Assembly (NCBI GenBank): GCA_947473045.1
Contig: CANJCO010000004.1
Span: forward strand, 62,001-126,000
Origin: Myxococcales bacterium
GTDB lineage: Bacteria > Myxococcota_A > Polyangia > Polyangiales > Polyangiaceae
DNA: 64,000 nucleotides
Direction: 5' to 3'
Under the pieces are notes generated by a model. The model did not search any database. It was not told the DNA's origin and was given only the letters and a program-made list of their open reading frames with translations. Within the stretch, counting starts at the first letter, position 1. Each line of letters opens with the position of its first letter. Made by a program: the position numbers and the translations under genes. This document shows positions 29,826-55,616 of this stretch, piece by piece.

Positions 29826-31778
29826 TCAGCGCGCCCTCGCGCCCCAGCCGCGCGCGTCGGTGTCGGCGCGCTCGCGATGGCGACGACCACTGTCGACCCA
29901 GCGCTCGCCCGCGGCGTAAGCGGCCACCTGGGGCGTCAGCATCTCGACCCACGCGACCGCCTGCCCGCCGCGCGCCTGAGCGAGCACCATCGACGCGAGA
30001 CCGAGCGCGTCTTGCGTGTTTCCGGCGGCTGCGAGCGCGGCCGCGAGCGTGACCGCGCGCGAGATCCCGGGCTTCTTCCCGGCGTCGAGCGCGATCGCGT
30101 GCTGAGCTTCGCCGAGCGCCCGGCGCCCGTCGACGACGGCCGGATCACGCGCGGTGGCGAGCACCCATGCAAGGCGCTCGGAGAGGTCGCCCGAAGTCGG
30201 CATCGCAGCCGTGGCGCGCTCCGCAGAGGCGAGCGCGGCGGCATCCTGACCGATCGACAGCAGGAACGTAACCTCGTTGACGCGCGCAGCGATGTCTCGC
30301 GGATGCTGAGCGATCGCGAGCGACAGATGCGACCGCGCGAGCGCGTCCCAGCCGAGCTCCGCGGCGATGGCTCCCATGTTCGAGTGGACGTCGGCGAGCG
30401 GCTCGAGCGCCAGCGAGCGTTCGTAGTGCGAGAAGGCCTCAGCCTTGTTGCCGGCGAGCAGCAACCTCGCCGCGAGATTGCGGTGCAGGCGCGAGTTTCC
30501 GGGGCGCACGGAGACGTCGTGTCGAAAGAGGCTCTCGGCGGTGGTGAAGTCGACGTTGCGTTTGACCGTCAGCGCGCCGAGCGCCAACGTCACCGCCGCC
30601 GCGAGCGCGAACGTCGTGCGCGGGCCGCCGCCCAGTCGAGCCAGCGCGCGGGCCGCTGCCACCACCGCGAGCGCCACGAGGCCTGCGAGCGGCAGGTACA
30701 TTCTGCGCTCGGCGACGAGCTCGTGCGCGAGCGGGATGAGCGTGGACGTGGGCGCGAGGACTGCGAAGAAGACGAGGCCTGCCCAGCCCGCGCGCGGCGC
30801 CTTGAAGAAGGCCCACGCGGTTGTCGCAACGAGGGCGATGACGACGAGCGCGAAGGGAATTTGCGGGGCGAACCGGGGCGCGACGGGCCAGTCGAAATAG
30901 TCGACGCTGAGCCGCAGCGGGGCCACAGCGAGCCTGAGGTAGTAGACGATGACCTCCCACTCCGAGTTGAGGTAGTCGAGCCGCGAAATTCCGGTCTGCG
31001 TTCCCTGACTCGCCGAGCCCGGGCCGCGTGAATACACGACCGCGGCGAGCCCGAACGCCGCCGCCGCGAGACCCGCGGCCCACGCATATCGCCGCCGTTT
31101 GCTGCGAGCGTCACCCGGAGGCGAAAACGCAAATTCGTACGTCGCGATGAGCACCGGCGTAACGATCGCTACCTCCTTGCTGACGATCGCCGCGCACGCC
31201 GCGAGCACTGCGAGCGCGTACCACTTCGTCGGGCGCGCCGAGGTCGACGACCGCTGCCACGCGCTGAGCGTCGCCAGCATGAAGCCCGCTGCGAGCGACT
31301 CGTAGCGGTGCACCGCATAGGTCACCGCCGAGGTGTGGAGCGGATGAGCTGCCCAGATCGCGGCGCACGCCAGCGCGATCGCAGAGCGCCCCAGCGGCGA
31401 TTTTTCCGAGCCTTGGCGCTTGAGGGCTTCGCGAATGACCGACCAGAGCAGCGCGGCGTTCGCCGCATGAATCGCGATATTGACCAGGCGATACGACCAC
31501 GGCTCTGCGCCGGTCCACGCCCAGTTGAGCGCAAACGAGAGCGTCACGAGCGGGCGCCGGGTCGCGACCGCCCAGTCGGCGGGGATCAGGTGGTGTACGG
31601 CGTCGGCGAAGATGATGTCGTTCTCGTCGTCGAACGCGAACTCGAAAGGCAGGGTGAAGAGCCACAGCGCCAGCACCAGCACGACGGGCACGAGCCATCC
31701 GTGGCGCGCGAGGGCGCGGGTCCACGCCGGCACCTTCGTTAGCGGCAGCGGAGAATGCGAGGTCGCGGGCGGCAGCAT
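29826..31778 (-). CDS. TPR membrane protein, TMTC/GT-C-like glycosyltransferase, copy A
   Basis: A 650-residue polytopic protein with about 10-12 hydrophobic segments and a TPR-like C-terminus (about 440-650; repeats around GNSRLHRNLAARLLLAGNKA). The first periplasmic loop has FDDENDI, the acidic motif expected of GT-C enzymes using polyprenyl-phosphate sugars. The phrase HPLHTSAVTYAVHRYESLA resembles the conserved loop of the TMTC/DUF1736 group, some members of which are protein O-mannosyltransferases. It is therefore a plausible membrane glycosyltransferase for protein or lipid. The ATG at 31778 is chosen; further upstream the frame enters intergenic sequence. A paralogue lies at 40243-42150, on the other side of the sugar genes. 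Confidence 0.75.
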   Translation of the reverse strand: MLPPATSHSPLPLTKVPAWTRALARHGWLVPVVLVLALWLFTLPFEFAFDDENDIIFADAVHHLIPADWAVATRRPLVTLSFALNWAWTGAEPWSYRLVNIAIHAANAALLWSVIREALKRQGSEKSPLGRSAIALACAAIWAAHPLHTSAVTYAVHRYESLAAGFMLATLSAWQRSSTSARPTKWYALAVLAACAAIVSKEVAIVTPVLIATYEFAFSPPGDARSKRRRYAWAAGLAAAAFGLAAVVYSRGPGSASQGTQTGISRLDYLNSEWEVIVYYLRLAVAPLRLSVDYFDWPVAPRFAPQIPFALVVIALVATTAWAFFKAPRAGWAGLVFFAVLAPTSTLIPLAHELVAERRMYLPLAGLVALAVVAAARALARLGGGPRTTFALAAAVTLALGALTVKRNVDFTTAESLFRHDVSVRPGNSRLHRNLAARLLLAGNKAEAFSHYERSLALEPLADVHSNMGAIAAELGWDALARSHLSLAIAQHPRDIAARVNEVTFLLSIGQDAAALASAERATAAMPTSGDLSERLAWVLATARDPAVVDGRRALGEAQHAIALDAGKKPGISRAVTLAAALAAAGNTQDALGLASMVLAQARGGQAVAWVEMLTPQVAAYAAGERWVDSGRRHRERADTDARGWGARAR

Positions 31779-31876
31779 GTCGCCCCCATGCGTAACGGAG
31801 TTTTTGCCTCGCGGCCATCGCCCGATTTCTTGCGGCAGGCCGGCGCGAAAGAGGCGCGCGCGGGTGACACAAGCGC

Positions 31877-31906
31877 TTGGTGGGCCGCGATCGCAAGTGC
31901 TAGTTT
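31877..31906 (+). promoter_or_regulatory. Candidate promoter of rfbF
   Basis: TTGGTG (31877-31882) and TAGTTT (31901-31906) are spaced 18 bp and lie ~50 bp before the rfbF start, in the 177-bp gap to the divergent TMTC-like gene. The match is weak. Confidence 0.28.
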
Positions 31907-31955
31907 GAATCGGGAGCGCGCGTGCCTTTCGGTCCGTTACGCGGGAGAGCCATTT

Positions 31956-32744
31956 TTGAAAGTCCTGATTCTCTGCGGCGGCATGGGCACACGACTGCGT
32001 GAACACACCGAGACGAGGCCCAAGCCGATGGTCGAGGTGGGGGGCATTCCGATCGTCGTTCACATCATGCGCATGTACGCGGCGGCGGGCTTCGACGAGT
32101 TCGTGCTTTGCCTCGGCTACAAGGCGGCGTTCATCAAAGACTACTTTCTCAACTACGAAGCCATGAGTCGCGACTTCACCGTTGAGCTCGGCAAGCCCGG
32201 GGCCGTGAGCTTTCACGGTTCAAGCGACGGCCGTCCGTCGTGGAAGGTGACGCTCGCGGACACCGGAGAGTCGACGTTGACCGGCGGGCGAATTGCGCGC
32301 GCGCTGCGCTACGTGCCGGAAGGCGAGATGTTCGCAGTGACGTACGGCGACGGGGTGGCCGATGTCGACCTCCGCGCGGTCGCCGAATTTCACCGCGAGC
32401 ACGGACTCGCGGCGACGGTGACCGGGGTGCGGCCTCCGAGCCGCTTTGGCGAAATCGAGCACGACGGCCCCCGCGTGACGCGGTTCAACGAAAAGCCGCA
32501 GGCGGGGCAGGGGCTTATCAACGGCGGCTTCTTCTTTTTCGCGCCGCGCTTTCGAGACTACCTGATCGATGACGTCCACTCCGCGCTCGAGCGCGAACCG
32601 CTCGAACGGTGCTCGGCAGACGGGCAGCTCGCGGTCTACGAGCACAGCGGCTTCTGGCAATGCGTCGATACGTTTCGCGACTGGGAGCGGCTCGAGTCGC
32701 TGTGGGCCGGCGGCCAGCCGCCGTGGGTGCGCGAGGCAGGCTGA
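31956..32744 (+). CDS. rfbF: Glucose-1-phosphate cytidylyltransferase
   Basis: Makes CDP-glucose from glucose-1-phosphate and CTP, the entry step to CDP-3,6-dideoxyhexoses. The 262-residue length fits RfbF/DdhA. Signatures: nucleotide-binding LILCGGMGTRLREHTETRPK, KPMVEVGGIPI, YGDGVADVD with the metal-binding Asp, and GGFFFF near the acceptor site. The start is TTG at 31956 with GGGAG 8 nt upstream; the frame remains open upstream but is not family-like. Only one base separates it from the convergent epimerase gene. With rfbG and rfbH ~3 kb away it completes three steps of the pathway. Confidence 0.95.
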   Translation: MKVLILCGGMGTRLREHTETRPKPMVEVGGIPIVVHIMRMYAAAGFDEFVLCLGYKAAFIKDYFLNYEAMSRDFTVELGKPGAVSFHGSSDGRPSWKVTLADTGESTLTGGRIARALRYVPEGEMFAVTYGDGVADVDLRAVAEFHREHGLAATVTGVRPPSRFGEIEHDGPRVTRFNEKPQAGQGLINGGFFFFAPRFRDYLIDDVHSALEREPLERCSADGQLAVYEHSGFWQCVDTFRDWERLESLWAGGQPPWVREAG

Positions 32745-40242: not shown

Positions 40243-42150
40243 TCAGCGCGAAATTGGCGCTCCGTCCGGTCCCTCGCGCCAAGGCTCGCGCGCGGAGAAC
40301 TGCTGCAGCATTCGTTCGGCGACGTTTGCCATCGGGGCGCGCCCCCGTCGCGTGGCCTCTGTCGCGAGCGCGGTTGCCACACCTGTTGCTTCGTTCCACG
40401 CGCCGCCTTCGGCGTACGCAGCGGCGAGCGTCTCGAGCAGGCGCAGCGAGGTCGCGTTCGCGGCGCGGGCATCGGCCGCAGCGCTCTCGCCGATCGCGAT
40501 CGCCTCGGCGCCGTTGCGGGCGCGCGCGTCGGGGGCCGTGCAGAGAATTCGCGCCAGTTTCTCCCGGTTCGCGATGCTCGGATCGCGAGCGACGACGTCG
40601 CGCTGCGCATGAAGGGCCTCGGGCCATTTGCCCTGAGCGATCAGAACGTTTGCCAGGTTTACTTGAACGGTGAGATCGTCGGGCGTCAGCTTCGCAGCGC
40701 GCGAGAAGGCGATCTCGGCGTCGGCGAACCTTCCCTTGCGCGCTTGCACCGTGCCGATGTTGTTGATGCACACTGCGCACGTCGGTCCGTCTTTGGCCGC
40801 CAGCTCGAACTGGACGAGCGCCTCGTCTTCTGCGCCACGCGCAGCGAGCTCGACGCCGTAATGGTAGCGCGCGCGCACGTTGGCCGGGTGCGCGAGCACG
40901 ATGCGGTGAAACAGCTCCTCGACGTTGCGGAACTCGGCATTTCGCTCGATCGTCGTCGCGACGAGCGCGCACGACAGGGTGACGACGATGGCGCCGAACG
41001 CGCGCGGAATTCGCCGCGACGCGAGCTCGATTCCGGCCACCGCGGCGGGGATGAGGAGCGCGAGCGGAACGTACATTCGCCGCTCGGCCAGCAGCTCATT
41101 TTTCAGCGGCAGCAGCGACGAAGTCGGCAGCAGCACGATGAGCCAACCGAGCGCCACGAACGCCATCGGCGGGGCGCGCCGCAGCGCAGCGAGCCCGCTG
41201 ACGACAATGGCTCCGATGAGGGCTGCCGGAAGCGCGACTTCGCGGATCGACCGGGCGACCGGCCAGTCCCAGTAGTCGATGGACAGCCCGCGAGGCCATA
41301 CCGCGAGCTCGAGATACCGCACCAACACGCCGAGCTCGCTCCTCGCGTAGTCGATCGGCCGAAGGTCGACGAAGCCGAACCCCTGCGATGCGTTGCGGCT
41401 GCCAAACGCGACGAGCAGGCCCACCACCGGCAAGAGCGCAAATAGCGTGAGATGGCTCGCGCGGCGCTTGCTCCAGAGTTCGGGCAGCCGCTCGCCCACG
41501 AAGCAGTGATCATACAGCAACACGAGCAGGGGGGCCGTGACGAGCGTCTCCTTCGTCGCCAGGCCGAGGAGGCACGCGAGCGCCATCGCGCCGCGAAGCC
41601 TGCTCGGATTCGCCGCCGTGACGCTCCGCGCGAACGTCGCGAGCGTGAGCAGATAAAACAGCCCTGCGAGCGACTCGTAGCGGTGAACGACGTAGGTGAC
41701 CGCGCTGGTGTGCAGCGGATGGACGACCCACAAAACCGCGCTCGCGAGGGCGATGCCGCTGGCGCCGCGGGCGAAACGCGCGGAGAGCGCCGGGAGTCGA
41801 AGGGTTGTGCGTACGAGGTCGAAGAGCACGAGCCCCGAGACCGCGTGGATGGCCAGGTTCACGGCGTGCCAGCCGCCCACGCGATAGCCGTTTATGAAAT
41901 AGTTGAGCGCGAACGACAGCTGCGCAAACGGCCGCGAGGCGCCCCGCGCCCAACGCAGCGATCCGAGATCGCGCAGGGCGGCGTTGTCTACGATGTTGGC
42001 GATGTCGTCCCAGAGGAACGGCACATCGAAGGTGCGGTGGTAGGCCACGAACGCGGCCGCGACGATCAGGGCGAACGCGAGCGCGACGCGCTTCGTCGCC
42101 AGCTGGGCGACGGGCTCCTGGGCGATTGCGGGATCGTGTTGCTCGTTCAT
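40243..42150 (-). CDS. TPR membrane protein, TMTC/GT-C-like glycosyltransferase, copy B
   Basis: A 635-residue polytopic protein, paralogous to the gene at 29826-31778. It shares the loop HPLHTSAVTYVVHRYESLA, a first-loop acidic motif (FLWDDIAN) and a C-terminal TPR array (about 430-600; YHYGVELAARGAEDEALVQF). About ten hydrophobic segments precede the array. A membrane glycosyltransferase using lipid-linked sugar is the likeliest role. The two Cys of PTCAVC in the TPR part are unusual. It is downstream of the kinase and membrane ATPase genes on the same strand (51-bp gap), so it may belong to their transcript, or to the sugar locus it borders. Confidence 0.75.
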   Translation of the reverse strand: MNEQHDPAIAQEPVAQLATKRVALAFALIVAAAFVAYHRTFDVPFLWDDIANIVDNAALRDLGSLRWARGASRPFAQLSFALNYFINGYRVGGWHAVNLAIHAVSGLVLFDLVRTTLRLPALSARFARGASGIALASAVLWVVHPLHTSAVTYVVHRYESLAGLFYLLTLATFARSVTAANPSRLRGAMALACLLGLATKETLVTAPLLVLLYDHCFVGERLPELWSKRRASHLTLFALLPVVGLLVAFGSRNASQGFGFVDLRPIDYARSELGVLVRYLELAVWPRGLSIDYWDWPVARSIREVALPAALIGAIVVSGLAALRRAPPMAFVALGWLIVLLPTSSLLPLKNELLAERRMYVPLALLIPAAVAGIELASRRIPRAFGAIVVTLSCALVATTIERNAEFRNVEELFHRIVLAHPANVRARYHYGVELAARGAEDEALVQFELAAKDGPTCAVCINNIGTVQARKGRFADAEIAFSRAAKLTPDDLTVQVNLANVLIAQGKWPEALHAQRDVVARDPSIANREKLARILCTAPDARARNGAEAIAIGESAAADARAANATSLRLLETLAAAYAEGGAWNEATGVATALATEATRRGRAPMANVAERMLQQFSAREPWREGPDGAPISR

Positions 42151-42201
42151 TGCAGGTTGGCGCGGCGATGGCGAAGCGCAGGTGCAGACTGCATGCCGCC
42201 G

Positions 42202-43458
42202 CTACCGGCCGCGCGCGCGTACCGGCTCGGCGGTCGTGGGCCTGACCGGAATCTCTTCGGCCGCGATTCGCGCCCGCACGACCAGCACAGCAAGCATCAG
42301 CGCAGCGAAGGCGAGCAGCAGCGTGGCGGCGAGGTGAAGGCGCTCGGGTGAAGTGGACGCGTGAGCCGCGATCGGCGCAGCAGCCGCTTTCGGCGCCTCG
42401 GCGCGCGGGCGGGGCAGCGGCGGCGGCGGGACGGCGAGCTCGAGATGCATGTCGTCAGCGCGCTTGACCTCGGGTTCGGGCTCCGGATCGGGTTCGATGT
42501 CGAGCGTGAGATCGGTGCGAACGAGCGACAGGGGCGGCGCGTTGTCCTTGGGCTTCGCGGCACCATCGGAGACAACGGCAAGCGCGGGTTCGACGTCGCC
42601 CGTGAAAGGCGCAAGGGCGCTCGCGAACGCTCGCATGTTCGGCGTTCGGTTCGCGGGGTCGCGCCTCAGCGCCGCCTTGAGCACCTCCGCAAGCGCCGCG
42701 GGAGCCGCCGGTGCGCGCTCGAGCAGGCTTGGCGCGTCGTGCTGCGCGATCGTGGAAAACAGCTTCCATACTGTCTCGCCCGTGAAGAGCGGGGCGCCCG
42801 TGAGCGCTTCATACAGAATCACCGCGAGCGACCACACATCACTCCGCTCGTCGGCGGTGCGCGCGCCGTTGACCTGCTCGGGTGACATGTAGCGCGGCGA
42901 GCCCACGAGCACATCGGCGTGGGTAAGCGAGACGGCGTCTGCATCGAGGGGCGCGTCGAGCTTCGCGATGCCGAAATCGATGAGCTTGACGGTCTCGGTG
43001 CCGCGCGCCGAACGCGAGATAAAAATGTTCGAAGGCTTGACGTCGCGATGAATGATTCCCGCTTCGTGCGCTGCGGCGAGACCCTCCGCGGCCTCGCACA
43101 AATACCGGCATGCGAGGCCCACCGGCAGCCGCCCGCGCGCGATTGCGTGCATCAGATCTTCGCCCACCAGGCGCTCCATCACGATGTAGGGCGCCGTTTT
43201 TCCGACGCTGCCGACGTCGAAGATTCGAACGACGTGAGGGCTCTCGAGCTTGGCGAGCGCCTTGGCTTCGCGCCGAAAGCGCGCGAGCAGCGTCTCATCA
43301 GCCAGCCCGCCTTCGAGCAGCAATTTGATCGCGACCGGGCGGTCGAGCTCTTCGTGTCGCCCAAGAAGAACCACGCCTCGCGGCGACCGTCCGAGAACGC
43401 CTTCGATGCGGTACTTGCCGTCGAGCAGATCGCCAATCTGAAGCGGATCTGCGCTCAT
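42202..43458 (-). CDS. Transmembrane Ser/Thr protein kinase
   Basis: A 418-residue Hanks-type kinase. The catalytic domain (about 16-270) has VAIKLLLE with the ATP Lys, HRDVKPSNIF, DFGIAKL and GSPRYMSPEQ. The glycine loop is degenerate: GRSPRGVV lacks the middle Gly, which may lower activity. An Asp/Glu/Pro-rich linker (about 300-360) leads to a single C-terminal membrane helix (about 378-398) and a short tail, so there is no sizeable extracellular sensor. Its ATG overlaps the stop of the upstream ATPase gene (ATGA), implying coupled synthesis and a shared job. Confidence 0.93.
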   Translation of the reverse strand: MSADPLQIGDLLDGKYRIEGVLGRSPRGVVLLGRHEELDRPVAIKLLLEGGLADETLLARFRREAKALAKLESPHVVRIFDVGSVGKTAPYIVMERLVGEDLMHAIARGRLPVGLACRYLCEAAEGLAAAHEAGIIHRDVKPSNIFISRSARGTETVKLIDFGIAKLDAPLDADAVSLTHADVLVGSPRYMSPEQVNGARTADERSDVWSLAVILYEALTGAPLFTGETVWKLFSTIAQHDAPSLLERAPAAPAALAEVLKAALRRDPANRTPNMRAFASALAPFTGDVEPALAVVSDGAAKPKDNAPPLSLVRTDLTLDIEPDPEPEPEVKRADDMHLELAVPPPPLPRPRAEAPKAAAAPIAAHASTSPERLHLAATLLLAFAALMLAVLVVRARIAAEEIPVRPTTAEPVRARGR

Positions 43459-44960
43459 CCGGCCACCCGCATCGCTTCGGCCAGCGTGGTTCGGCCCAGT
43501 CGGGCGTGTTCCACGGCTGCTTCAAACAAGGGAACGGTCCCCTCGGCGATCGCCAGCTTCATGAGCTGGGACGTGTCGAGGTTCTTCTGCAGGGCCTCTC
43601 GCACTGCCGGGGAAATCTCGAGGATTTCGTAGACCGCCGTTCGACCGTTCCAGCCGGTCGAGTCGCAGCGCGGACATCCTCGCGGCGCAAAGAACGACGA
43701 GCCTGTGAGCTTGGCGGCGGCGAGGCGGACCGCCTGCTCGGGCGTCGGTTTGGCGGGTACGCGGCAGTGCGCGCAAAGCTGTTTGACGAGGCGCTGCGAC
43801 ACGCACGCAAGCGACACCGACGCGAGCACGAACGGCTCGATGCCCATCTCGAGGAGGCGGTTGAACACGCCGGCCGCAGAGTCGGCGTGCACCGTCGTGA
43901 GAATGAGATGGCCGGTCAGGCCCGACTGCATGGCGATGTTGGCCGTCTCAGAGTCGCGAATCTCGCCGACCGCGATGACGTTGGGATCCTGCCGCAGCAG
44001 TGCGCGGAAGCCCTGCGCGAAATCGAGACCTGCCTGCCTGTTTACTTTGGTCTGCGCGAACGCGGGCACGACCAGCTCGATGGGGTCTTCGATGGTCGCG
44101 ATTTGAGCGCCGCCGCGGCGGGTTGCGCGAATGTGTCCGAGCGCCGCGTAGATGCTCGTGGTCTTCCCGCTACCGATCGGACCGGTGAAAAAGATGAGGC
44201 CCTGCGGCTTGTCGAGCATCGCCTTGACGCGTTCGAGCAGCGCAGGCGTGAGCCCCACTTCTTCGATCGACGGCAACTTCATTCCCGTGCGGCCTACACG
44301 CAAAACGATTTTCTCGCCGTGTTCGGTCGGGAGGAACGACGCGCGAATCTCTGCGGAGCCGTCGGGTGTCGCGATCGGGAAGTGTCCGTCCTGCGGCCGG
44401 TCGGTGACGTAGAGCACGAGGCGCGTGAGCACTTTGAGCCGGTTGGTAATCGGGCCTTGCAGGTCGGGCGGAAGAAGCCCGACGTCGATCATGTCGCCGT
44501 CGACGCGCAGCGACAGCTGCATGCCGCCGTGGCGCGGGTGCAGGTGGATGTCGCTCGCTTCCGCCCGGATCGCGGCTTGTACGGTCAGCGCAACGAGGGC
44601 CGACGCGTCGAGCTTGTGCATGCGCAGTTTCAGCGCCTCGATCGCGAGCGCGGCTTTGCGGGCTCGGATGGTTCCGGGCGGGAGCGCCGGCAGAAATTCG
44701 TCGACTTCAACGGGCGCTGTTACGGGGCGGCGCCGACTTGCGAGCTCGCATGCGCCAGCCCCCGCGAGCGCGAGGAGCACCACCGGGTGAATGAGCGAGC
44801 CGGCGAGCATGCGCGCCGCGGAGCTCGCGTCGGGAGCCGCAGCATAAAATGGGTAGATGTCGGGCACGACCAGCGCGAGCAGCGCGCACGCCGCGGCGAT
44901 CACGGCGATAAGAGTGAGTGCCCGAGCTGCTTTCTCCACCGGGGGCAGTCTACGCGCCAA
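43455..44960 (-). CDS. Membrane-anchored GspE/PilB-type secretion ATPase
   Basis: A 501-residue hexameric-type AAA ATPase of the type II secretion/type IV pilus extension family. Walker A GPIGSGKTT is near residue 258, the Asp box is TIEDPIELV, Walker B VGEIRDSETANIA and the His box TTVHADSA. The zinc tetracysteine typical of GspE/PilB (CAHC ... CPRC) is present around 397-430. Unusually, the N-terminus is not the normal N1 domain: it has two hydrophobic stretches (about 14-34 and 52-70), suggesting membrane anchoring. The start is TTG with no clear ribosome-binding site; a GTG at codon 8 is an alternative. No pilin or secretin gene is nearby. Confidence 0.9.
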   Translation of the reverse strand: MARRLPPVEKAARALTLIAVIAAACALLALVVPDIYPFYAAAPDASSAARMLAGSLIHPVVLLALAGAGACELASRRRPVTAPVEVDEFLPALPPGTIRARKAALAIEALKLRMHKLDASALVALTVQAAIRAEASDIHLHPRHGGMQLSLRVDGDMIDVGLLPPDLQGPITNRLKVLTRLVLYVTDRPQDGHFPIATPDGSAEIRASFLPTEHGEKIVLRVGRTGMKLPSIEEVGLTPALLERVKAMLDKPQGLIFFTGPIGSGKTTSIYAALGHIRATRRGGAQIATIEDPIELVVPAFAQTKVNRQAGLDFAQGFRALLRQDPNVIAVGEIRDSETANIAMQSGLTGHLILTTVHADSAAGVFNRLLEMGIEPFVLASVSLACVSQRLVKQLCAHCRVPAKPTPEQAVRLAAAKLTGSSFFAPRGCPRCDSTGWNGRTAVYEILEISPAVREALQKNLDTSQLMKLAIAEGTVPLFEAAVEHARLGRTTLAEAMRVAG

Positions 44961-44999
44961 CAGGGCTTACATGAAGCGATAACGCGACGGATCACGCGG

Positions 45000-45971
45000 T
45001 CATCGCACGGCGAGGGCGACCGCGCTGGCGACCAAAAAGGTGCTCTCGGCGCAGAGCGCGAAGGCCAGCGCTGACAAGGTCGACAGCCTCGCGGCCGAGT
45101 TCGATCGCCCTGAGATTCTTGGCTTGAAGTAGGCGCGCGCGAGCCTCATCGCCACCAGCCCCACGGGCACCGCGATGGCGAGCGCGACGAGGCCGGGCTC
45201 GGAACAGCCGGGCTTGAGGTTCGTATCGCCGTCTTCCGGGCCCGGCACGGTGCAGCCGACGGCGGCGGCCATCGCCATGTACGCAGCAGGGGCCGCGATA
45301 CCGACGAGGCCGGCCACCGTTGTGGCGAGCACGATGGGCCAGGCGAGGCCGTCTTTTGGGCCTGCCCCCGACGGCTGCACCGCAGGGAGGCCCGAGAGCA
45401 CGCGCGCAAACGCTTCGACCATGTCCGCCGCGCGGCCGTCGCGCTCTGCGGCAGACGAGAACGAGACCAGCATCGCGCTCACCCTGCCGTCCTTGTCGTC
45501 GATGGAAACGTTGGCGAACCCCATCGCGATCAGCGCTGCAGCACCTTCGCGCACGCCGGGGCCGAAGACCTCCGCGAGCAGCTCGGCGTCTGTTGTCGGC
45601 GAGTCGATGTACACGGCGCGATCGAAGCTCGCGTCGCCAGTCTGAAATTCGCGGTTGAGCCCCTCGGCCTTCGCATTTTCGTCGGCGGCCGACTCGCGCC
45701 GCAGCAAGATCCGCATCGGTCGCGGCGCCCGAAGATTTCCCCGCGCGCTTTGCCGATAGCCGGCCGTTCCGCCTGGCCGCACGTGCGTTTCTTTGGCATG
45801 CGTGTCGTAGAGGGCAGACATCGAAATCGACGAGGAGCTGCCCGATGTGTATTCTACACGAATTCGCACTCCGTCGCGGTCGATCTCGAACTGGCTCGCG
45901 CTCGAAGGGGCCCTCGCCAGCGCGCGGAACTCGGAGACGAGCGCGGACTCAGGGGTTTCGGTGAACGCCAC
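45000..45971 (-). CDS. Hypothetical protein with C-terminal membrane segments
   Basis: A 323-residue protein I cannot assign. The N-terminal ~190 residues are soluble and beta-rich (FEIDRDGVRIRVEY, FDRAVYIDSPTTDAELL, VSIDDKDGRVSAML). About three hydrophobic segments fill the last 130 residues, with a Gly/Cys-containing loop (GCTVPGPEDGDTNLKPGC) between two of them. The GTG at 45971 is chosen because it lies just after the stop of the upstream GST gene; the frame runs 63 bp further into that gene. It lies between the GST and the secretion ATPase on the same strand, 39 bp before the latter. Confidence 0.65.
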   Translation of the reverse strand: MAFTETPESALVSEFRALARAPSSASQFEIDRDGVRIRVEYTSGSSSSISMSALYDTHAKETHVRPGGTAGYRQSARGNLRAPRPMRILLRRESAADENAKAEGLNREFQTGDASFDRAVYIDSPTTDAELLAEVFGPGVREGAAALIAMGFANVSIDDKDGRVSAMLVSFSSAAERDGRAADMVEAFARVLSGLPAVQPSGAGPKDGLAWPIVLATTVAGLVGIAAPAAYMAMAAAVGCTVPGPEDGDTNLKPGCSEPGLVALAIAVPVGLVAMRLARAYFKPRISGRSNSAARLSTLSALAFALCAESTFLVASAVALAVR

Positions 45972-45981
45972 GAGGCCTGCG

Positions 45982-46593
45982 CTAGTGCTTGGCGCGCCAA
46001 GCGGCCACGCCGGCGTGATCGTGCACGGCGCCAAACAGACGCATGAGCTTGGGCAGCGCGTCGAAGATGCTGGCGGGAATGTGGTCGAGCGCTCCGTTTT
46101 TGAACCAACGCACGACCACGTACAGCTTGATATCGACCACCTGAATCGCGTCGCCGGCGAAAAACGGGCCGTCCCCCATCTGTCGCTCAGTGAACGCTCC
46201 CCACTCGGGAAGAAAACCCGCGACGAGCTGCGCTCGCGCGCGCTGCTTTTCGTCTTCGGTTTTTAGCCGCATGGTCGGCGAGACGGCCGCCCGGAGGTCT
46301 TCGACGTGGGCCATCATCGCTTCGTGACGGGCCGCTTCGTACGGCTCCGTAGGGTGCAGGCCGTGAAGTCTGCCGACCAGTCCAAGAATCGCGTTCGACT
46401 GCCCGAGCGGCGCGTGCCCCGGGGCCTCGAACACGGGCAGCGCCCCGAAGGGAGTGTGCGCCTTCATCGCGGCCCAATCCGCGTGCTTGATGCGGTGATC
46501 GTCGAACGCCACGCCCGCGAGATGCAGGGCGATGCGGCACTCCTCGCCGCGGCTTACGGGCGCATCGAAATAGGTCAGCTTCGGCTTTTGCAT
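45982..46593 (-). CDS. Glutathione S-transferase family protein
   Basis: A 203-residue GST-like protein. The thioredoxin-fold N-terminal domain includes LTYFDAPVSRGEECRIALHLAG and the cis-Pro/Glu-Ser-type region TPFGALPVFEAPGHAPLGQSNAIL, which binds glutathione in the superfamily. The all-helical C-terminal domain follows (about 80-200). The ATG at 46593 (MQKPKLTYFD) gives a normal N-terminus; a longer frame adds a low-complexity stretch. Sigma-class-like Tyr in TYFD may be the catalytic residue. Substrate unknown. Confidence 0.88.
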   Translation of the reverse strand: MQKPKLTYFDAPVSRGEECRIALHLAGVAFDDHRIKHADWAAMKAHTPFGALPVFEAPGHAPLGQSNAILGLVGRLHGLHPTEPYEAARHEAMMAHVEDLRAAVSPTMRLKTEDEKQRARAQLVAGFLPEWGAFTERQMGDGPFFAGDAIQVVDIKLYVVVRWFKNGALDHIPASIFDALPKLMRLFGAVHDHAGVAAWRAKH

Positions 46594-49317: not shown

Positions 49318-52098
49318 ATGTTATCGATTCGAGAGGTGAGCAAGCAGCTCGCGTCGGCCTCGTGGGCGACCGACGGCGCGCGCACGGCGTTCGTCGCCGA
49401 GGCGTGTCCGCTTGGCCCGGCCGATGTGCTCAAGGCGCTGTCTGCAGTCGTGGAGGGTGGTGCGCGCTCAGACGGCGGCAATCACGCGGCTCGATGCGCC
49501 GCTTTCTCAGCCATTGTCGAGAGCTCCGCCGATCCTGACCTCTTCGTTCCGCTCGTCCGTGCCCTGCGAACGGCCGACGCGCTGCTGCGCGCGCACCTGG
49601 TTGCGCTGCTGCCGAAGGTCAACGCGTCGAGCGGGCACGCTCACCTGTGTCAGGCGCTCGGAGACGAGGCGCCGGAGGTGCGCGGCGCGGCCGCGGCGGT
49701 GCTGCGTCAAGTGGGAGGTCGATCCGCGTTTGAGATGATCGTCGAGCTGGCGCGCCAGCCCCTGTTTCCCGGTCGCATCGATGCCCTCGACGTCTTCGCG
49801 TTGAAGGCCGGCTCGCTCGCGGTCCCGCTCTTTGAAGCGGTGATCGATGCGGGCACTCCCCATGAGGTCGTGCACGCGCTCTCCTATATCGGCGACGCGC
49901 GACTGATGTCGAAGAACCTCGGTGAGGCTGTCGCGCTCGCGACCAAGGTGCTCGCGCGCCAGACGGCGGCCGAGTCGGCCGATGCGGCCGTGCTTGCCCT
50001 CGCAAACCTGGCGAGCGAAGACGAATTTTTCCTTGTCATGGGCGACAGGCTCGACAACCCTCCGCCGAATCTCGCGCGCGCGCTCGTCGCGGGCATGCAG
50101 CGGTTCAGCTCAAAGCGCGTGATCGACTACCTGCTCGAGCGCTTCCGCGCTGGCCCAAACGTGGTGCGCCATGCCGTCCTCGAGGCTGCGCGGGCCATCG
50201 CGAGCGAGCAGTCGATTCCCATCATCATCGAGGCGCTGCAGTTCGGTAGCCTCGTCGTCCGAACGCGGGCGGCCGAGATCATCGCCGAGCTTGGCAGGAG
50301 CGAGAAGGTCGATCCCGCTCGCTGCATCATTTGGCTGTTGCGCAGTCGCGACGTCAACGTGCGGCGCTTGGCGATCGAGATCGCCAAGCAGGTCGGTGAT
50401 CGCCGCGGTGACCTCGGTCCGAGCTTGCTCAAATACCTCCGCGACGAGGACTGGTGGGTGCGCGAGCGAACGGTAGACGCGCTCATCGAGACGATGGGCA
50501 CGGGCCTGACGCGCCACCTCGCCGAGTTTCTCAACGACGACTCCGACGTGGTTCGCCGCTGGGCGGTCGGGAGCCTTCGGCGCGTAAAAGACCCAAAATC
50601 ACTCGGCGCGCTGGTGCGCGTCGCCGGCGACGACGCCGACTGGTGGGTGCGCGAGCAGGCGATCGAGGCCATCGGCGAGCTCGGCGATTCGCGCGCCGTT
50701 CCTCACGTGATTGACCTGCTCCGCCGATTGCCCGACGCTCGCATTTCGTGCATCTCGGCGCTCGGCGCCCTCAAGGGGGCCGCCGCGTGCTCCGACGTCG
50801 CGCCGCTCGTGGTCGACCCTGACGCCGATGTTCGCCTCGCCGCGCTCGCCTTCGTCGCGTCGCTCGACGCATCGGCGGAGCTCGCGTGGGTCAAGCGCGC
50901 CGAGAGCGACGCAGACCCGCGCGTGCAGCGCGCCGCGCTCGAGCTCCTCGCGCGCTGGAAGGTCCCGGCCGCCGTGCTGCCGGGCGACGATCGCATCAAG
51001 AGCCTGCTCGACCGCCTCCTCGCAGCTGTGGCAAGGGCAGAGGCCGACGACCTTTTGATCGCAGTCGGTCAGCGCCCGTACGTCAAGCGTATGGGCAAGA
51101 TGGTCGCGCTCTCGGAGGCGCTGTTCACCGAAGATCAGGTGAAAGGCATTCTGCTTCCGCAGCTCACGATCGCCCAGAAGACGCAGCTGGAGGCCCTGCG
51201 CGATGTCGATTTCTCCTATGAGGTGAAGTCGCTCGGACTGCGCTTTCGCGCGAACGTATTTCAGCAGATGAAGGGCCTGTCGGCCGTATTTCGAATCGTC
51301 AAAAACACCATCCCCGAGCTCGGAACGCTCGGTCTTCCGCCCGTGGTTCGCAGCTTTGCTGATTTTAAAAATGGCCTCGTCATCGTCGGCGGACCGACGG
51401 GGTCAGGCAAGTCGACCACGCTCGCGGCGCTCGTCGACTTCGTCAATCGCAATCAATCGGAACATATCATTACGATAGAAGACCCGATTGAGGTCGTTCA
51501 CGGCACCAAGCGGTGCCTCATCAATCAGCGCGAGGTGGGCGCGCACACAACGTCGTTCGAGGCGGCGCTGCGGCGTACGCTGCGGCAGGATCCGGACGTG
51601 ATTCTGATAGGCGAAATGCGCGATCTGGAGACCATATCGTTCGCGGTGACGGCGGCCGAGACCGGCCACCTCGTCTTCGGAACGCTGCATACGGCTTCGG
51701 CCGACACGAGCATCGACCGCCTCATCGATACGTTTCCGCCTGGGCAGCAGCCGCAGGTTCGCGCGATGCTCTCAGAGAGCCTGCGCGCCGTGCTTTGCCA
51801 GCACCTGCTCAGGCGCAAAGACGGCCCCGGCCGGGTCGTCGCCGCCGAAGTGATGCTGGGCAACGCCGCCGTGTCCAACCTGATTCGCAAGGGAAAGTGC
51901 TTTCAGATACCCCAGGTCATCACCACCGGTCGTGAGCTTGGAATGCAGAGTATGGATATGGACCTGTCGCGCCTCGTTCGGGAGGGCGTCGTCGACCTCG
52001 ATGATGCGTACGCGAAGGCCGTCGACAAAAAGGCATTTGAGGCCATGGTAGGCGACGGCATCGGCGCCAATGGCGCCTTACCGCCAGTGCCCTCGTGA
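49318..52098 (+). CDS. HEAT-repeat/PilT fusion ATPase
   Basis: A 926-residue protein with an unusual architecture. Residues ~1-560 are alpha-helical repeats of HEAT type (for example EVRGAAAAVLRQVG, DWWVRERTVDALIE, DWWVREQAIEAIGE). The C-terminal ~350 residues are a PilT/PilU-type ATPase: N-terminal PilT domain, Walker A GGPTGSGKST (about 692-701), Asp box ITIEDPIEVVH, Walker B LIGEMRDLETI, His box GTLHT and a NLIRKGK motif near the end matching AIRNLIRE of PilT. PilT alone is ~350 residues, so the HEAT part is an added interaction module. The ATG at 49318 has GGGAGG upstream. It is followed after 12 bp by a second PilT gene. Confidence 0.92.
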   Translation: MLSIREVSKQLASASWATDGARTAFVAEACPLGPADVLKALSAVVEGGARSDGGNHAARCAAFSAIVESSADPDLFVPLVRALRTADALLRAHLVALLPKVNASSGHAHLCQALGDEAPEVRGAAAAVLRQVGGRSAFEMIVELARQPLFPGRIDALDVFALKAGSLAVPLFEAVIDAGTPHEVVHALSYIGDARLMSKNLGEAVALATKVLARQTAAESADAAVLALANLASEDEFFLVMGDRLDNPPPNLARALVAGMQRFSSKRVIDYLLERFRAGPNVVRHAVLEAARAIASEQSIPIIIEALQFGSLVVRTRAAEIIAELGRSEKVDPARCIIWLLRSRDVNVRRLAIEIAKQVGDRRGDLGPSLLKYLRDEDWWVRERTVDALIETMGTGLTRHLAEFLNDDSDVVRRWAVGSLRRVKDPKSLGALVRVAGDDADWWVREQAIEAIGELGDSRAVPHVIDLLRRLPDARISCISALGALKGAAACSDVAPLVVDPDADVRLAALAFVASLDASAELAWVKRAESDADPRVQRAALELLARWKVPAAVLPGDDRIKSLLDRLLAAVARAEADDLLIAVGQRPYVKRMGKMVALSEALFTEDQVKGILLPQLTIAQKTQLEALRDVDFSYEVKSLGLRFRANVFQQMKGLSAVFRIVKNTIPELGTLGLPPVVRSFADFKNGLVIVGGPTGSGKSTTLAALVDFVNRNQSEHIITIEDPIEVVHGTKRCLINQREVGAHTTSFEAALRRTLRQDPDVILIGEMRDLETISFAVTAAETGHLVFGTLHTASADTSIDRLIDTFPPGQQPQVRAMLSESLRAVLCQHLLRRKDGPGRVVAAEVMLGNAAVSNLIRKGKCFQIPQVITTGRELGMQSMDMDLSRLVREGVVDLDDAYAKAVDKKAFEAMVGDGIGANGALPPVPS

Positions 52099-52110
52099 CC
52101 GGAGCATTTC

Positions 52111-53190
52111 ATGGCGCGCATTGACTCTTTCCTTCGGCTCGTCGTCGAGCAGCACGCGAGCGACCTGCACTTTCATGCCGGCAGCGTGCCCATCATCCGA
52201 CACGACGGAGACCTCGTGCCGCTCCCGTTCCGAGTGCTGTCGGACGTCGAGGCGAGGCGGTTTCTCACCGAAATCATGACTCCCGACCAGGTCGCCGCGT
52301 TCGACGCCGACCGCGAGCTCGATTTCGCCTACGTGCTCGCTGGAGTCGGCCGATTTCGCGTGAACGCGCTCGTTCAGTCGCGCGGAGTCGGCGCTGTTTT
52401 TCGCATCATTCAAGCGAAAGTTCCGACGCTCGACGAGCTCGGCCTGCCGCCGGTGGTGAAGAAAATCGCCGCGTACAGCAGCGGGCTCGTGCTGATTACA
52501 GGGCCGACCGGATCGGGAAAGACGACTTCGCTCGCGGCCATCGTCAACGAGATCAACCTCACCGCCCGGCGGCACATCATCACCATCGAAGACCCGATTG
52601 AAGTCGTGCACGCCCCGATGAAAAGCGTTGTCACCCAGCGCCAGGTCGGAGCGCACACTGACTCATTTTCGTCGGCGTTGCGTTCCGCGCTTCGCGAGGC
52701 GCCCGACGTCCTGGTGGTCGGCGAAATGCGCGACCTCGAGACGGTGAGTCTCGCCCTCGCGGCTGCCGAGACTGGCGTGCTCGTCTTCGGCACGCTCCAC
52801 ACGGGGTCCGCGCGCAAATCGATTGACCGCATTCTCGATATGCATCCTGAGTCGGTGCGTGAACAGGTCCGCGGCGTGCTCTCTGTGATGCTTAAAGCGG
52901 TAGTCTCGCAGCACCTCTGCAAACGCGCGTCGGGTGATGGGCGCATCGCCGCCTTCGAGGTCCTCCTGCAGAGCTACGGGGTGTCTCACATGATTCGCGA
53001 CAACAAGGTTCACCAGCTCGACGCATTCATGCAATCGACGGAAAACGCGGGCGACGCGATGCAGACGCTCGACGGCTGCCTGCTGTCTCACGTGCGCGCG
53101 GGACTGATTGAGGTCGACGAGGCTGTTCGCGTCGCCAATTATCCCGATACGCTGCGGCGCATCTTATCCGAGTTGCCGCCGCAGGAGTAA
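52111..53190 (+). CDS. pilT: PilT/PilU-type twitching ATPase
   Basis: A 359-residue hexameric ATPase of the type IV pilus retraction family. The N-terminal PilT domain has HASDLHFHAGSVPIIRHDGD. The core has Walker A GPTGSGKTT, Asp box TIEDPIEVVH, Walker B VVGEMRDLETVSLA and His box GTLHTGSA, and the C-terminal motif MIRDNKVHQL corresponds to AIRNLIRDGKxHQ. All catalytic features look intact. The gene lies 12 bp after the HEAT-PilT fusion with GGAG 7 nt before the ATG, and 69 bp before a kinase gene, making a three-gene set. Whether it acts on a pilus or another machine is open, as no pilin gene is near. Confidence 0.93.
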   Translation: MARIDSFLRLVVEQHASDLHFHAGSVPIIRHDGDLVPLPFRVLSDVEARRFLTEIMTPDQVAAFDADRELDFAYVLAGVGRFRVNALVQSRGVGAVFRIIQAKVPTLDELGLPPVVKKIAAYSSGLVLITGPTGSGKTTSLAAIVNEINLTARRHIITIEDPIEVVHAPMKSVVTQRQVGAHTDSFSSALRSALREAPDVLVVGEMRDLETVSLALAAAETGVLVFGTLHTGSARKSIDRILDMHPESVREQVRGVLSVMLKAVVSQHLCKRASGDGRIAAFEVLLQSYGVSHMIRDNKVHQLDAFMQSTENAGDAMQTLDGCLLSHVRAGLIEVDEAVRVANYPDTLRRILSELPPQE

Positions 53191-53259
53191 CGCGCGAGGT
53201 CGAAGGCGGGGCGCCTCCGAGCGCGCCGCAGGTTCACCTTTTTTTACGGAGCCACGCGC

Positions 53260-55293
53260 TTGTCAGACGATACCCGAAATCAGGTCCTCGCAGCGGCCAC
53301 CCGTCTCGCTGGCGAAGGTAAGGTCGACGCCGCCGTCAGCGCGCTGCTGAGCGTCTCGGCGATCGACGAGGCGGCCACGCTGCTGGTGGGCGTTCGTCGA
53401 TTCGCGGACGCCGCGCGAATCATCATGGAGGCGCTCGCGCCGGTGCTCGACGCGCGGCGGCCCCCCGACGCCAGGCAGCGCCAGTTGCTCCAAAAGGCTG
53501 CGGTGTGCTTCGCGAACAACGGCGACGCGGACGTCGCTGTGGAGCTGTATCTCGGTATCGGCGAGCCGCATCGGGCGATGCAGGTGCTCGAGCGCGCGGG
53601 CGATGCGGTGGGCGCCGCCCGACTCGAGGCCGACCTTGGTCAGGGACGCCGCGTCGCAGCCGCGAGCCTCGCGGGGATTGCAGCGCGCGCCGTGACGATG
53701 GCGGCGGCCCAGCGTCTCGAGCAGGAGGGCAAGCTCCGCCCCGCGCTCGCGGCGTTCATGCAGCTTCGCCGTCACGCCGACGCGGCGCGCGTCGCCCGCA
53801 AATTGGGAGATTTGTCTCAAGCGGCGCACCTGTATCTGGGAGGCGCGATGCCTTTCGAGGCCGCCGGCTGCTATTTCGAGGCGGGAGACTCCGGAAAGTG
53901 CCTCGATGCGCTCGTGCACGTGCCGCGCGAAGATCCGCGCTACCGTGACGCTTGCGTGCAGGCTGTGCGCATCGCGAGCGAGCTCGGCGTGCTCGACTTC
54001 GCGCTCGACCAGTTTCTCGCGCCCTTTGCCCGATCCAACCCGCGCGGCGACGCAGAGTTCGCGGCGTTTTCAGCGCTCGGTCGCATGTACGAAGCGCACG
54101 ACTTCGGCGACAGCGCGCGACGGCTGTACGAAAAACTGTGCGCCGTGTTTCCGAGCGCGTCCGAGCCTCGCGAGCGCCTCGCTGCGCTCAGTGAGCGGGC
54201 GCGCGGCGGTGACATGGCCTTCGCGAAGATCGTTCGCGAAGACGCCTCTTTCATGGGCGATGAACTGCGTCGTCCGCGTCGAGTCCCGACTTCGGGCGGC
54301 GATGCCCTGCCCGAATTGCCCGACCTTCCCGAGCTCCCGCCGCTCGGCTTGTCATCCGTCGCGCGCAGTCCGCTCGCGGCCACTCTGCCGCAAGTCGAGG
54401 CCCCGGCCCGCTCGCCAGCGCCACCGCCCGCGGCGATTCACGCAGCGGCCTCCGACGAGAGCGCGCAGGTCGCCGTGGGCGAGCTGATCGCAGGTCGCTA
54501 CCGCGTCGACCGCGTGCTCGGGCAGGGCGGGATGGCGGTGGTCTACCTCGCGAGCGACGTCGAGCTCGGCGAGCCCATCGCGATCAAGCTGTTCAACTCG
54601 GTGGTCACTGACGAAGGCCTCATCGCGCGCTTCAAGCAGGAGCTTAGTCTCTCGCGGCGCCTCGCCCATCCCAACATCGTGCGCATGTACGACATCGGCA
54701 CGCACCGCGGCCGGAAGTTCATCACGATGGAGCTGCTGCGGGGCCACGCGCTCGCCGATTACATGGGCGCTCCGGTCGATCTTGTCAGCGGGCTTTGGTA
54801 TCTCGTTCAGGCCTGCGAGGGGCTCGCGGCCGCGCACGCGCAGGGCATCATTCATCGCGATATCAAGCCCGACAATTTCTTCGTCACAGACGACGGCGTG
54901 CTCAAGGTCGTCGATTTCGGCATCGCGAAGGCCGGCGCCAGCGAAGGACTGACGCAGGCTGGCTTCATGGCGGGTACGCCGGGCTACATGTCGCCCGAGC
55001 AGATCAACAACTTCACCGCCGTGACGCACCTGTCTGACATCTATGCGCTCGGCATCGTGGCGTTCGAAATGTTCACCGGAGCCGTGCCGTTTGGCGGCGA
55101 TGACCTGATGCCGATTCTCATGGCCCACCTGAACGAGGTGCCGCCCACGCCGACTTCGCGCGGGGCAAAAATCTCTGCGGAGCTCGAGGCGGTCATCTTG
55201 CGCCTCCTCGAAAAAGATCCGGCGCGCCGGATACAGAGCTGCGCCGAACTTGGGGCCATTTTTCGCCGGATCGCGGGCCTGGTGCGCGCCTGA
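53260..55293 (+). CDS. Ser/Thr protein kinase with N-terminal TPR-like repeats
   Basis: A 677-residue protein with reversed layout: residues ~1-320 are alpha-helical repeats (AAVSALLSVSAIDEAATLLV, AVELYLGIGEPHRAMQVLER), a Pro-rich linker follows (~345-405), and the kinase domain is at the C-terminus (~412-677). It has GQGGMAVVYLAS, AIKLFN with the ATP Lys, HRDIKPDNFF, DFGIAKA and GTPGYMSPEQ, so it should be active. No membrane helix is seen, so it is cytoplasmic. The start is TTG at 53260 with ACGGAG 8 nt before. Its position behind two PilT-type ATPases suggests it regulates them or senses their state (inference). Confidence 0.92.
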   Translation: MSDDTRNQVLAAATRLAGEGKVDAAVSALLSVSAIDEAATLLVGVRRFADAARIIMEALAPVLDARRPPDARQRQLLQKAAVCFANNGDADVAVELYLGIGEPHRAMQVLERAGDAVGAARLEADLGQGRRVAAASLAGIAARAVTMAAAQRLEQEGKLRPALAAFMQLRRHADAARVARKLGDLSQAAHLYLGGAMPFEAAGCYFEAGDSGKCLDALVHVPREDPRYRDACVQAVRIASELGVLDFALDQFLAPFARSNPRGDAEFAAFSALGRMYEAHDFGDSARRLYEKLCAVFPSASEPRERLAALSERARGGDMAFAKIVREDASFMGDELRRPRRVPTSGGDALPELPDLPELPPLGLSSVARSPLAATLPQVEAPARSPAPPPAAIHAAASDESAQVAVGELIAGRYRVDRVLGQGGMAVVYLASDVELGEPIAIKLFNSVVTDEGLIARFKQELSLSRRLAHPNIVRMYDIGTHRGRKFITMELLRGHALADYMGAPVDLVSGLWYLVQACEGLAAAHAQGIIHRDIKPDNFFVTDDGVLKVVDFGIAKAGASEGLTQAGFMAGTPGYMSPEQINNFTAVTHLSDIYALGIVAFEMFTGAVPFGGDDLMPILMAHLNEVPPTPTSRGAKISAELEAVILRLLEKDPARRIQSCAELGAIFRRIAGLVRA

Positions 55294-55319: not shown

Positions 55320-55347
55320 AGTGTTCAGTGGGTGTCTAGTGTGCAGT
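55320..55347 (+). promoter_or_regulatory. Direct repeat, candidate operator
   Basis: AGTGTTCAGT (55320-55329) and AGTGTGCAGT (55338-55347) differ at one position and start 18 bp apart, ending 2 bp before the ATG of a small winged-helix-like gene. The region is also bounded by TGTAC and GTACA. This could be an autoregulatory operator. Confidence 0.35.
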
Positions 55348-55349
55348 AC

Positions 55350-55616
55350 ATGCAATACGACATCTCGGTTCTGCGCGCCATTCTTCGGCTCTCTCGCCAC
55401 CGTCGTCAGGTCGATCTCGCCGCCGTCGCGCTGCGCGTCGCGGGGGAGCTCCCCGAGCTTCGCGATGCGCTTCGGCGTCTCGAGCAGCAGGGACTCGTCA
55501 TTCGTGAGCCCGACGTCGCACGCCTGACCCTGCAGGGCCTCGCGGTCGCCGTCGCGTCGATTCCTGCCCGCAGCAAGGCTGCCCGCGCGCCGCGTCGACT
55601 TCAGCGCGCAGCGTGA
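55350..55616 (+). CDS. Small winged-helix-like protein
   Basis: An 88-residue protein. The segment QVDLAAVALRVAGELPELRDALRRLEQQGLVIREPDVARLTLQGLA fits a winged helix-turn-helix: helix 2, turn, recognition helix, then a two-strand wing (shown here in pieces no longer than needed: RRLEQQGLV and ARLTLQGLA). A basic tail follows (ARSKAARAPRRLQRAA). The ATG at 55350 gives MQYDISVLRAILRL; a start 18 bp upstream is possible. A direct repeat lies just before the start. Its end overlaps the convergent patatin-like gene by 16 bp. DNA binding is a structural guess; target unknown. Confidence 0.6.
   Translation: MQYDISVLRAILRLSRHRRQVDLAAVALRVAGELPELRDALRRLEQQGLVIREPDVARLTLQGLAVAVASIPARSKAARAPRRLQRAA

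Follow-up and report, generated by a model that had tools for sequence, protein, structure and literature searches.

Many bacteria carry several PilT paralogues, and in the open-access literature searched no role was found for those encoded outside the pil cluster. One question then is what such a motor could be doing when it is encoded next to a second motor of the same family and to a protein kinase, and this is the situation met in the window analysed here, a stretch of 64,000 nucleotides from a genome of the Polyangiaceae (Myxococcota). The parts of this trio belong to known families; their combination, a PilT fused to HEAT repeats (HEAT-PilT), a second PilT (PilT2) and a kinase with a TPR-like solenoid (TPR-kinase, or TPR-STPK), is apparently undescribed, and no account of a HEAT-PilT or PilT-kinase operon turned up in the open-access literature searched, a scope outside which most subscription papers fall. 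Comparative genomics argues strongly for a link between the motors and the kinase; as to its meaning, we infer the pilus as partner, a physical complex, and phosphorylation and its direction. We give an even chance to the reading that the trio is a portable operon encoding a regulated, accessory pair of retraction motors that would serve type IVa pili (T4aP) in trans. The cassette would then offer a testable answer to the question of the paralogues, in that retraction could draw on interchangeable motors that have input domains built in, along with a phospho-switch, and if this were true a cytoplasmic, TPR-tethered bacterial kinase would gain an obvious candidate substrate.

The three genes and their products

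The three genes are adjacent on the plus strand and separated by gaps of 12 and 69 nt, and a re-reading of the open reading frames found the coordinates, single strand and spacing given in the initial annotation to be correct (Table 1). Shine-Dalgarno-like sequences precede the starts of HEAT-PilT (GGGAGG), PilT2 (CGGAG) and the TPR-kinase (ACGGAG), and the TTG start of the last is consistent with the N-termini of its orthologues. The same annotation had described two PilT-type motors followed by a cytoplasmic kinase with an N-terminal repeat solenoid, and this was borne out by the HMM domains and by the lack of membrane spans in all three proteins. Chance reading frames as an explanation of the trio were ruled out by the HMM scores and by conservation. 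The 94-aa reading frame that follows the kinase gene at 38 nt gave a HemN_C match below threshold; it is not kept along with the cassette and has the look of a remnant.

Table 1. Features of the cassette and its surroundings, in window coordinates.
Feature	Position	Strand	Description
HEAT-PilT	49318..52098	+	ATG start, 926 aa; HEAT solenoid fused to PilT-family hexameric ATPase
Most conserved HEAT segment	50326..50664	+	residues 337-449 of HEAT-PilT; 49-row alignment
PilT2	52111..53190	+	ATG start, 359 aa; stand-alone PilT-family ATPase, second motor of the pair
Shine-Dalgarno-like ACGGAG	53246..53251	+	ahead of the kinase TTG start
TPR-STPK	53260..55293	+	TTG start, 677 aa; TPR-like solenoid and Hanks/PknB-type Ser/Thr kinase
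94-aa reading frame	55332-55616	+	
GspE-like ATPase	43455-44960	minus	501 aa; hydrophobic N-terminal (membrane) segment, no MshEN
Second ATPase-kinase pair	42202-44960	minus	kinase overlaps ATPase; kinase with C-terminal TM
TPR membrane protein	40243-42150	minus	beside second ATPase-kinase pair
796-aa reading frame	29826-32216	minus	

In the Pfam/NCBIfam scan HEAT-PilT matched HEAT_2 in six stretches (5.8e-39), its HEAT-repeat solenoid (approximately residues 1-548) being followed by the PilT-family ATPase (564-905), and both HEAT-PilT (428.1 bits) and PilT2 (417.6 bits) exceed the curated cut-off of 319.1 bits of TIGR01420, the model of the PilT/PilU family. The AlphaFold model of HEAT-PilT (mean pLDDT 90.4) consists of an all-helical solenoid (residues 1-546) and then the PilT fold, with PilT4 of Geobacter as its best solved match (TMt up to 0.95, 44-46% identity). 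Walker A and the Walker B/catalytic Glu are present in HEAT-PilT (GPTGSGKST and LRQDPDVILIGEMRD) as well as in PilT2 (GPTGSGKTT and LREAPDVLVVGEMRD), and a motif tally of the relatives found Walker A and B kept in nearly every copy of both motors and an AIRNLIRE-like C-terminal motif in most copies of both. At the AIRNLIRE position the HEAT-PilT of the window reads AVSNLIRKGK and its PilT2 a looser GVSHMIRDNK, most PilT2 relatives being AVSNLIRENK-like.

PilT is marked by this motif, which PilU lacks (PMC6762196). Given its presence in relaxed form, and scores for both motors of 311-314 bits against solved PilT but 239-252 bits against solved PilU, an identity as PilU was rejected. Likewise rejected was an identity as a PilB/GspE extension ATPase, HEAT-PilT reaching 121.5 bits on the PilB equivalog TIGR02538 against a cut-off of 675.65, and 135.2 against 630.25 on TIGR02533, with no MshEN domain. 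Within the HEAT solenoid the most conserved segment contains two near-invariant D(E/D)DWWVRE-type motifs (residues 377-384 and 439-446) and is the strongest candidate for a putative docking surface.

The third protein consists of a TPR-like helical solenoid (residues 1-336), for which there is a weak GEMI5-TPR match, a disordered Pro-rich linker (337-400) and a kinase domain (407-676), and its AlphaFold model (pLDDT 86.6) has the corresponding short-helix solenoid, disordered linker and kinase domain. The Pkinase fold (154.7 bits) together with the HRDxKxxN, DFG and (S/A)PE motifs places it among the Hanks-type Ser/Thr kinases, and HRD and DFG were intact in the motif tally. Foldseek with the full model gave mainly kinases (PknB/PknA/Stk1, 34-35% identity) and returned no solved fold for the TPR solenoid. 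Kinases of the PknB/Stk1 type share the kinase fold and motifs with TPR-STPK but have a TM segment and PASTA domains, whereas TPR-STPK is cytoplasmic and has the TPR solenoid instead; an identity as PASTA kinase (NF033483) was rejected, at 283 versus 450 bits and without a TM segment. The TPR-kinase itself has neither a sensor domain nor a membrane domain, and its input must therefore come through protein partners.

Conservation and spread of the cassette

A profile of full-length HEAT-PilT, run on 377 sampled Myxococcota genomes, found the gene sporadically, in 28 of them. The HEAT part was also scanned against 84,980 species genomes; the best 80 of 377 relatives were taken and, with the Myxococcota profile matches, make up 82 distinct loci, a set biased towards close relatives by that choice of the best 80. 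Counting the 67 distinct loci that have PilT2 and, past it, either 1.5 kb or more of sequence or an identified kinase, the third gene has a TPR solenoid in 64: it is a TPR-kinase in 59 and a TPR protein without kinase in five (L042, L043, L089, L092 and L177, Sandaracinaceae-type and kin), and the remaining three (L109, L111 and L189) have neither. Gene order and strand are identical at every locus where the genes were found, and the gaps, with starts chosen by script, are mostly -4 to +12 nt across the relatives.

The initial annotation, which took the three genes for one operon, had proposed a comparison of gene neighbourhoods, and in this comparison the trio proves not to be scattered, the kinase standing third throughout those 59 loci in three phylum-level groups: Myxococcota, Acidobacteriota (Vicinamibacteria; carriers include L140, L147, L148, L150, L171 and L174) and the candidate division CSSED10-310 (carriers include L179, L183 and L184). 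An order kept at this frequency places the association beyond chance, and its recurrence in scattered Myxococcota, in Acidobacteria and in one candidate division shows the trio to be a real operon and module. Only close relatives have the same genes on either side of the cassette, which indicates that the cassette is portable and rules out a wider conserved locus around the trio. The pairwise distances of the three proteins are correlated (Spearman 0.80, 0.65 and 0.79 over 51 loci, at a permutation floor of p 0.003), a correlation which in part reflects species phylogeny.

Could the genes nevertheless be co-inherited and functionally separate, with a kinase that is merely carried along with the PilT pair and hits unrelated targets? 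The absence of the kinase domain from the Sandaracinaceae-type loci and from L109, L111 and L189 would agree with this, as would the abundance of kinases in the host genome, whose 5.15 Mb contain 114 kinase-domain matches, besides 12 matches to T2SSE-superfamily ATPases, so that a single ATPase-kinase adjacency alone is weak evidence. We nonetheless hold such a separation to be very improbable, the order being preserved across the three groups while the flanks change, and the genes being only a few nt apart.

Since five loci retain the TPR protein without a kinase, the scaffold is the better conserved of the two. CSSED10-310 is the first branch in both motor clades and has the kinase, from which the kinase would be ancestral and was probably lost later in Sandaracinaceae. 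The wider retention of the TPR solenoid is equally what might be expected if the direction were reversed, with the twin PilT ring as sensor and the TPR-kinase reading its engagement or load and signalling to unrelated targets such as gene expression or exopolysaccharide. The input of the kinase, which must come via partners, speaks for this alternative, and it has a parallel in M. xanthus, where PilB acts in signalling for exopolysaccharide (PMC5544727); but both motors retain the full set of ATPase motifs, and a pure sensor needs no two active motors, for which reason we regard it as unlikely.

In one genome (L189, Polyangiaceae MAG SKYG56, positions 3-2705) HEAT-PilT and PilT2 lie in one frame of 900 codons with no stop, a single-genome hint that the two may act as one unit; there may be an internal start inside this frame. 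Five genomes contain two diverged cassettes or HEAT-PilT/PilT pairs (L103/L107 in G285, L100/L106 in G194, L109/L111 in G061, L041/L045 in G034 and L140/L147 in G400), and in two related MAGs a second, divergent kinase gene is found directly upstream of the cassette (L117:6954-7787 and L118:6992-7783, minus strand).

Relation to known motors

In a tree of 68 PilT-family domains, with 23 rows each for HEAT-PilT and PilT2 and built without a PilU reference, the two motors form one well-supported clade each (100/99), and both fall outside the canonical PilT clade of the pilB-pilT-pilC clusters. In the tandem PilT pairs found elsewhere in Myxococcota, the second members group with PilT2 (97/91) and the first members have large, unnamed N-terminal extensions. 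This makes the HEAT cassette a branch of a more ancient arrangement of two PilT motors. Judged from the tree and the domain layouts, this arrangement allows different N-terminal domains on the first motor, and the HEAT branch is the one with a kinase partner. The other pairs (in the host genome itself, contig C59, and in G008, G012, G015, G028 and G051) thus resemble the cassette in having an extended first and a plain second PilT, but their first members carry something other than HEAT at the N-terminus (no Pfam match), and no kinase follows directly. The pair of the host genome (L049, 5480-8347), whose first member has an N-terminal domain of approximately 200 aa without Pfam match, is flanked by an IgGFc-binding-family protein on its upstream side and, downstream, by a paralogue of the TPR membrane protein of the window. 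Another HEAT-PilT subfamily (L047:6646-10808 and L048:7170-11422; HEAT_2 at about 1e-37) has no kinase, and there the PilT after HEAT-PilT itself bears an N-terminal extension of 200 aa.

Both motors are like canonical PilT (Geobacter PilT4, 6ojx; P. aeruginosa PilT, 3jvu) in fold (44-46% identity for the motor domain of HEAT-PilT), in Walker A/B and, for most copies, in a motif resembling AIRNLIRE, and unlike it in forming separate clades and in being encoded outside the pil cluster; canonical PilT, moreover, has no N-terminal HEAT solenoid, and its ASDLH motif is replaced by xDDL in HEAT-PilT. PilU, the PilT-dependent accessory retraction ATPase (P. aeruginosa PilU, 9n32), is likewise a PilT-family ATPase whose gene immediately follows that of another, but lacks the AIRNLIRE motif that the PilT2 relatives keep in similar form, and PilT2 scores lower against it than against PilT. 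PilB is, like HEAT-PilT, a T2SSE-superfamily motor with an N-terminal regulatory domain, which is MshEN in PilB and HEAT in HEAT-PilT.

Type IV pili and the upstream region

A classical T4aP cluster, with pilin, PilC, PilM-Q and secretin alongside, is not found in the window, and T4P genes are nearby in one of the 82 loci, which is about the chance rate. At this sole T4P-adjacent locus (L094/L145, in G059) pilB (TIGR02538, 834 bits), pilT, pilC and a histidine kinase lie next to the cassette in divergent orientation. A T4P neighbourhood as strong support was therefore rejected. At the level of whole genomes, PilM and T2SSF proteins occur in 29 of 29 Myxococcota carriers, and T2SSE and T2SSF proteins in 17 of 17 further carriers, several of them in pilB-pilT-pilC order, such that none of the 46 carriers tested lacks PilB-like or PilC-like proteins. 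As T4aP are near-universal in the carrier groups, this co-occurrence with the cassette proves little; nothing found contradicts an action on T4aP in trans. The proposal that the module is separate from a classical pilus cluster accordingly holds by position only, for 81 of the 82 loci, given the PilB-like and PilC-like proteins of every carrier tested.

An alternative is that the motor pair serves some other machine, be it T2SS- or Tad-like, an unknown envelope machine or soluble remodelling. The 81 loci apart from T4P genes are compatible with this, as is the distinctness of the motor clades from canonical PilT, and in five Vicinamibacteria carriers (G400, G401, G404, G405 and G406, the genomes of L140, L148, L174, L156 and L172) no strong PilM match was found despite the presence of T2SSE and T2SSF, these being either T4P variants or incomplete genomes. 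We consider it improbable, however, since the PilT-family scores lie well over the cut-off, an AIRNLIRE-like motif is retained in most copies, T2SSF and T2SSE-type genes are present in every carrier tested, and the flanks hold no other conserved partner gene.

If the accessory retraction pair is the correct reading, HEAT-PilT and PilT2 would both be active PilT-type ATPases working jointly, in rings stacked on each other or in a single mixed hexamer. They would dock in trans on PilC, the platform of the T4aP machine that the cell already has, with the HEAT solenoid taking the place of PilB's MshEN input domain and serving as docking arm. The third protein would bind the motors via its TPR solenoid, on the HEAT arm, and in most lineages its kinase domain would phosphorylate a motor or a partner, such that motor engagement follows a cellular signal. 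M. xanthus, for comparison, encodes four additional PilT paralogues (PMC6762196). A bolder version, in which the two motors form an obligate alternating 3+3 hexamer whose HEAT arms carry the TPR-kinase, as a self-contained, phosphorylation-gated 'gearbox' transferable between the pilus machines of different phyla, seems doubtful to us.

The initial annotation had further noted an absence of pilin, PilB, PilC and secretin genes, and had counted the second ATPase-kinase pair as part of the module. Models of pilin, PilC and secretin indeed gave no match among the window ORFs scanned, and the PilB/GspE-like ATPase of that pair is real, lying on the other strand 4.4 kb upstream. This GspE-like ATPase has relatives in 29 of 144 genomes of the order, a kinase directly adjoining it is absent in 13 of 13 neighbourhoods examined, and it was not seen near the cassette elsewhere; the second pair thus drops out of the module, its proximity to the cassette being, on these neighbourhoods, incidental. 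The minus-strand region of the window at 40243-46034 also encodes a 344-aa protein of no known family. The 796-aa reading frame, without Pfam match at 1e-5, is approximately 35% identical to the TPR membrane protein beside the second pair.
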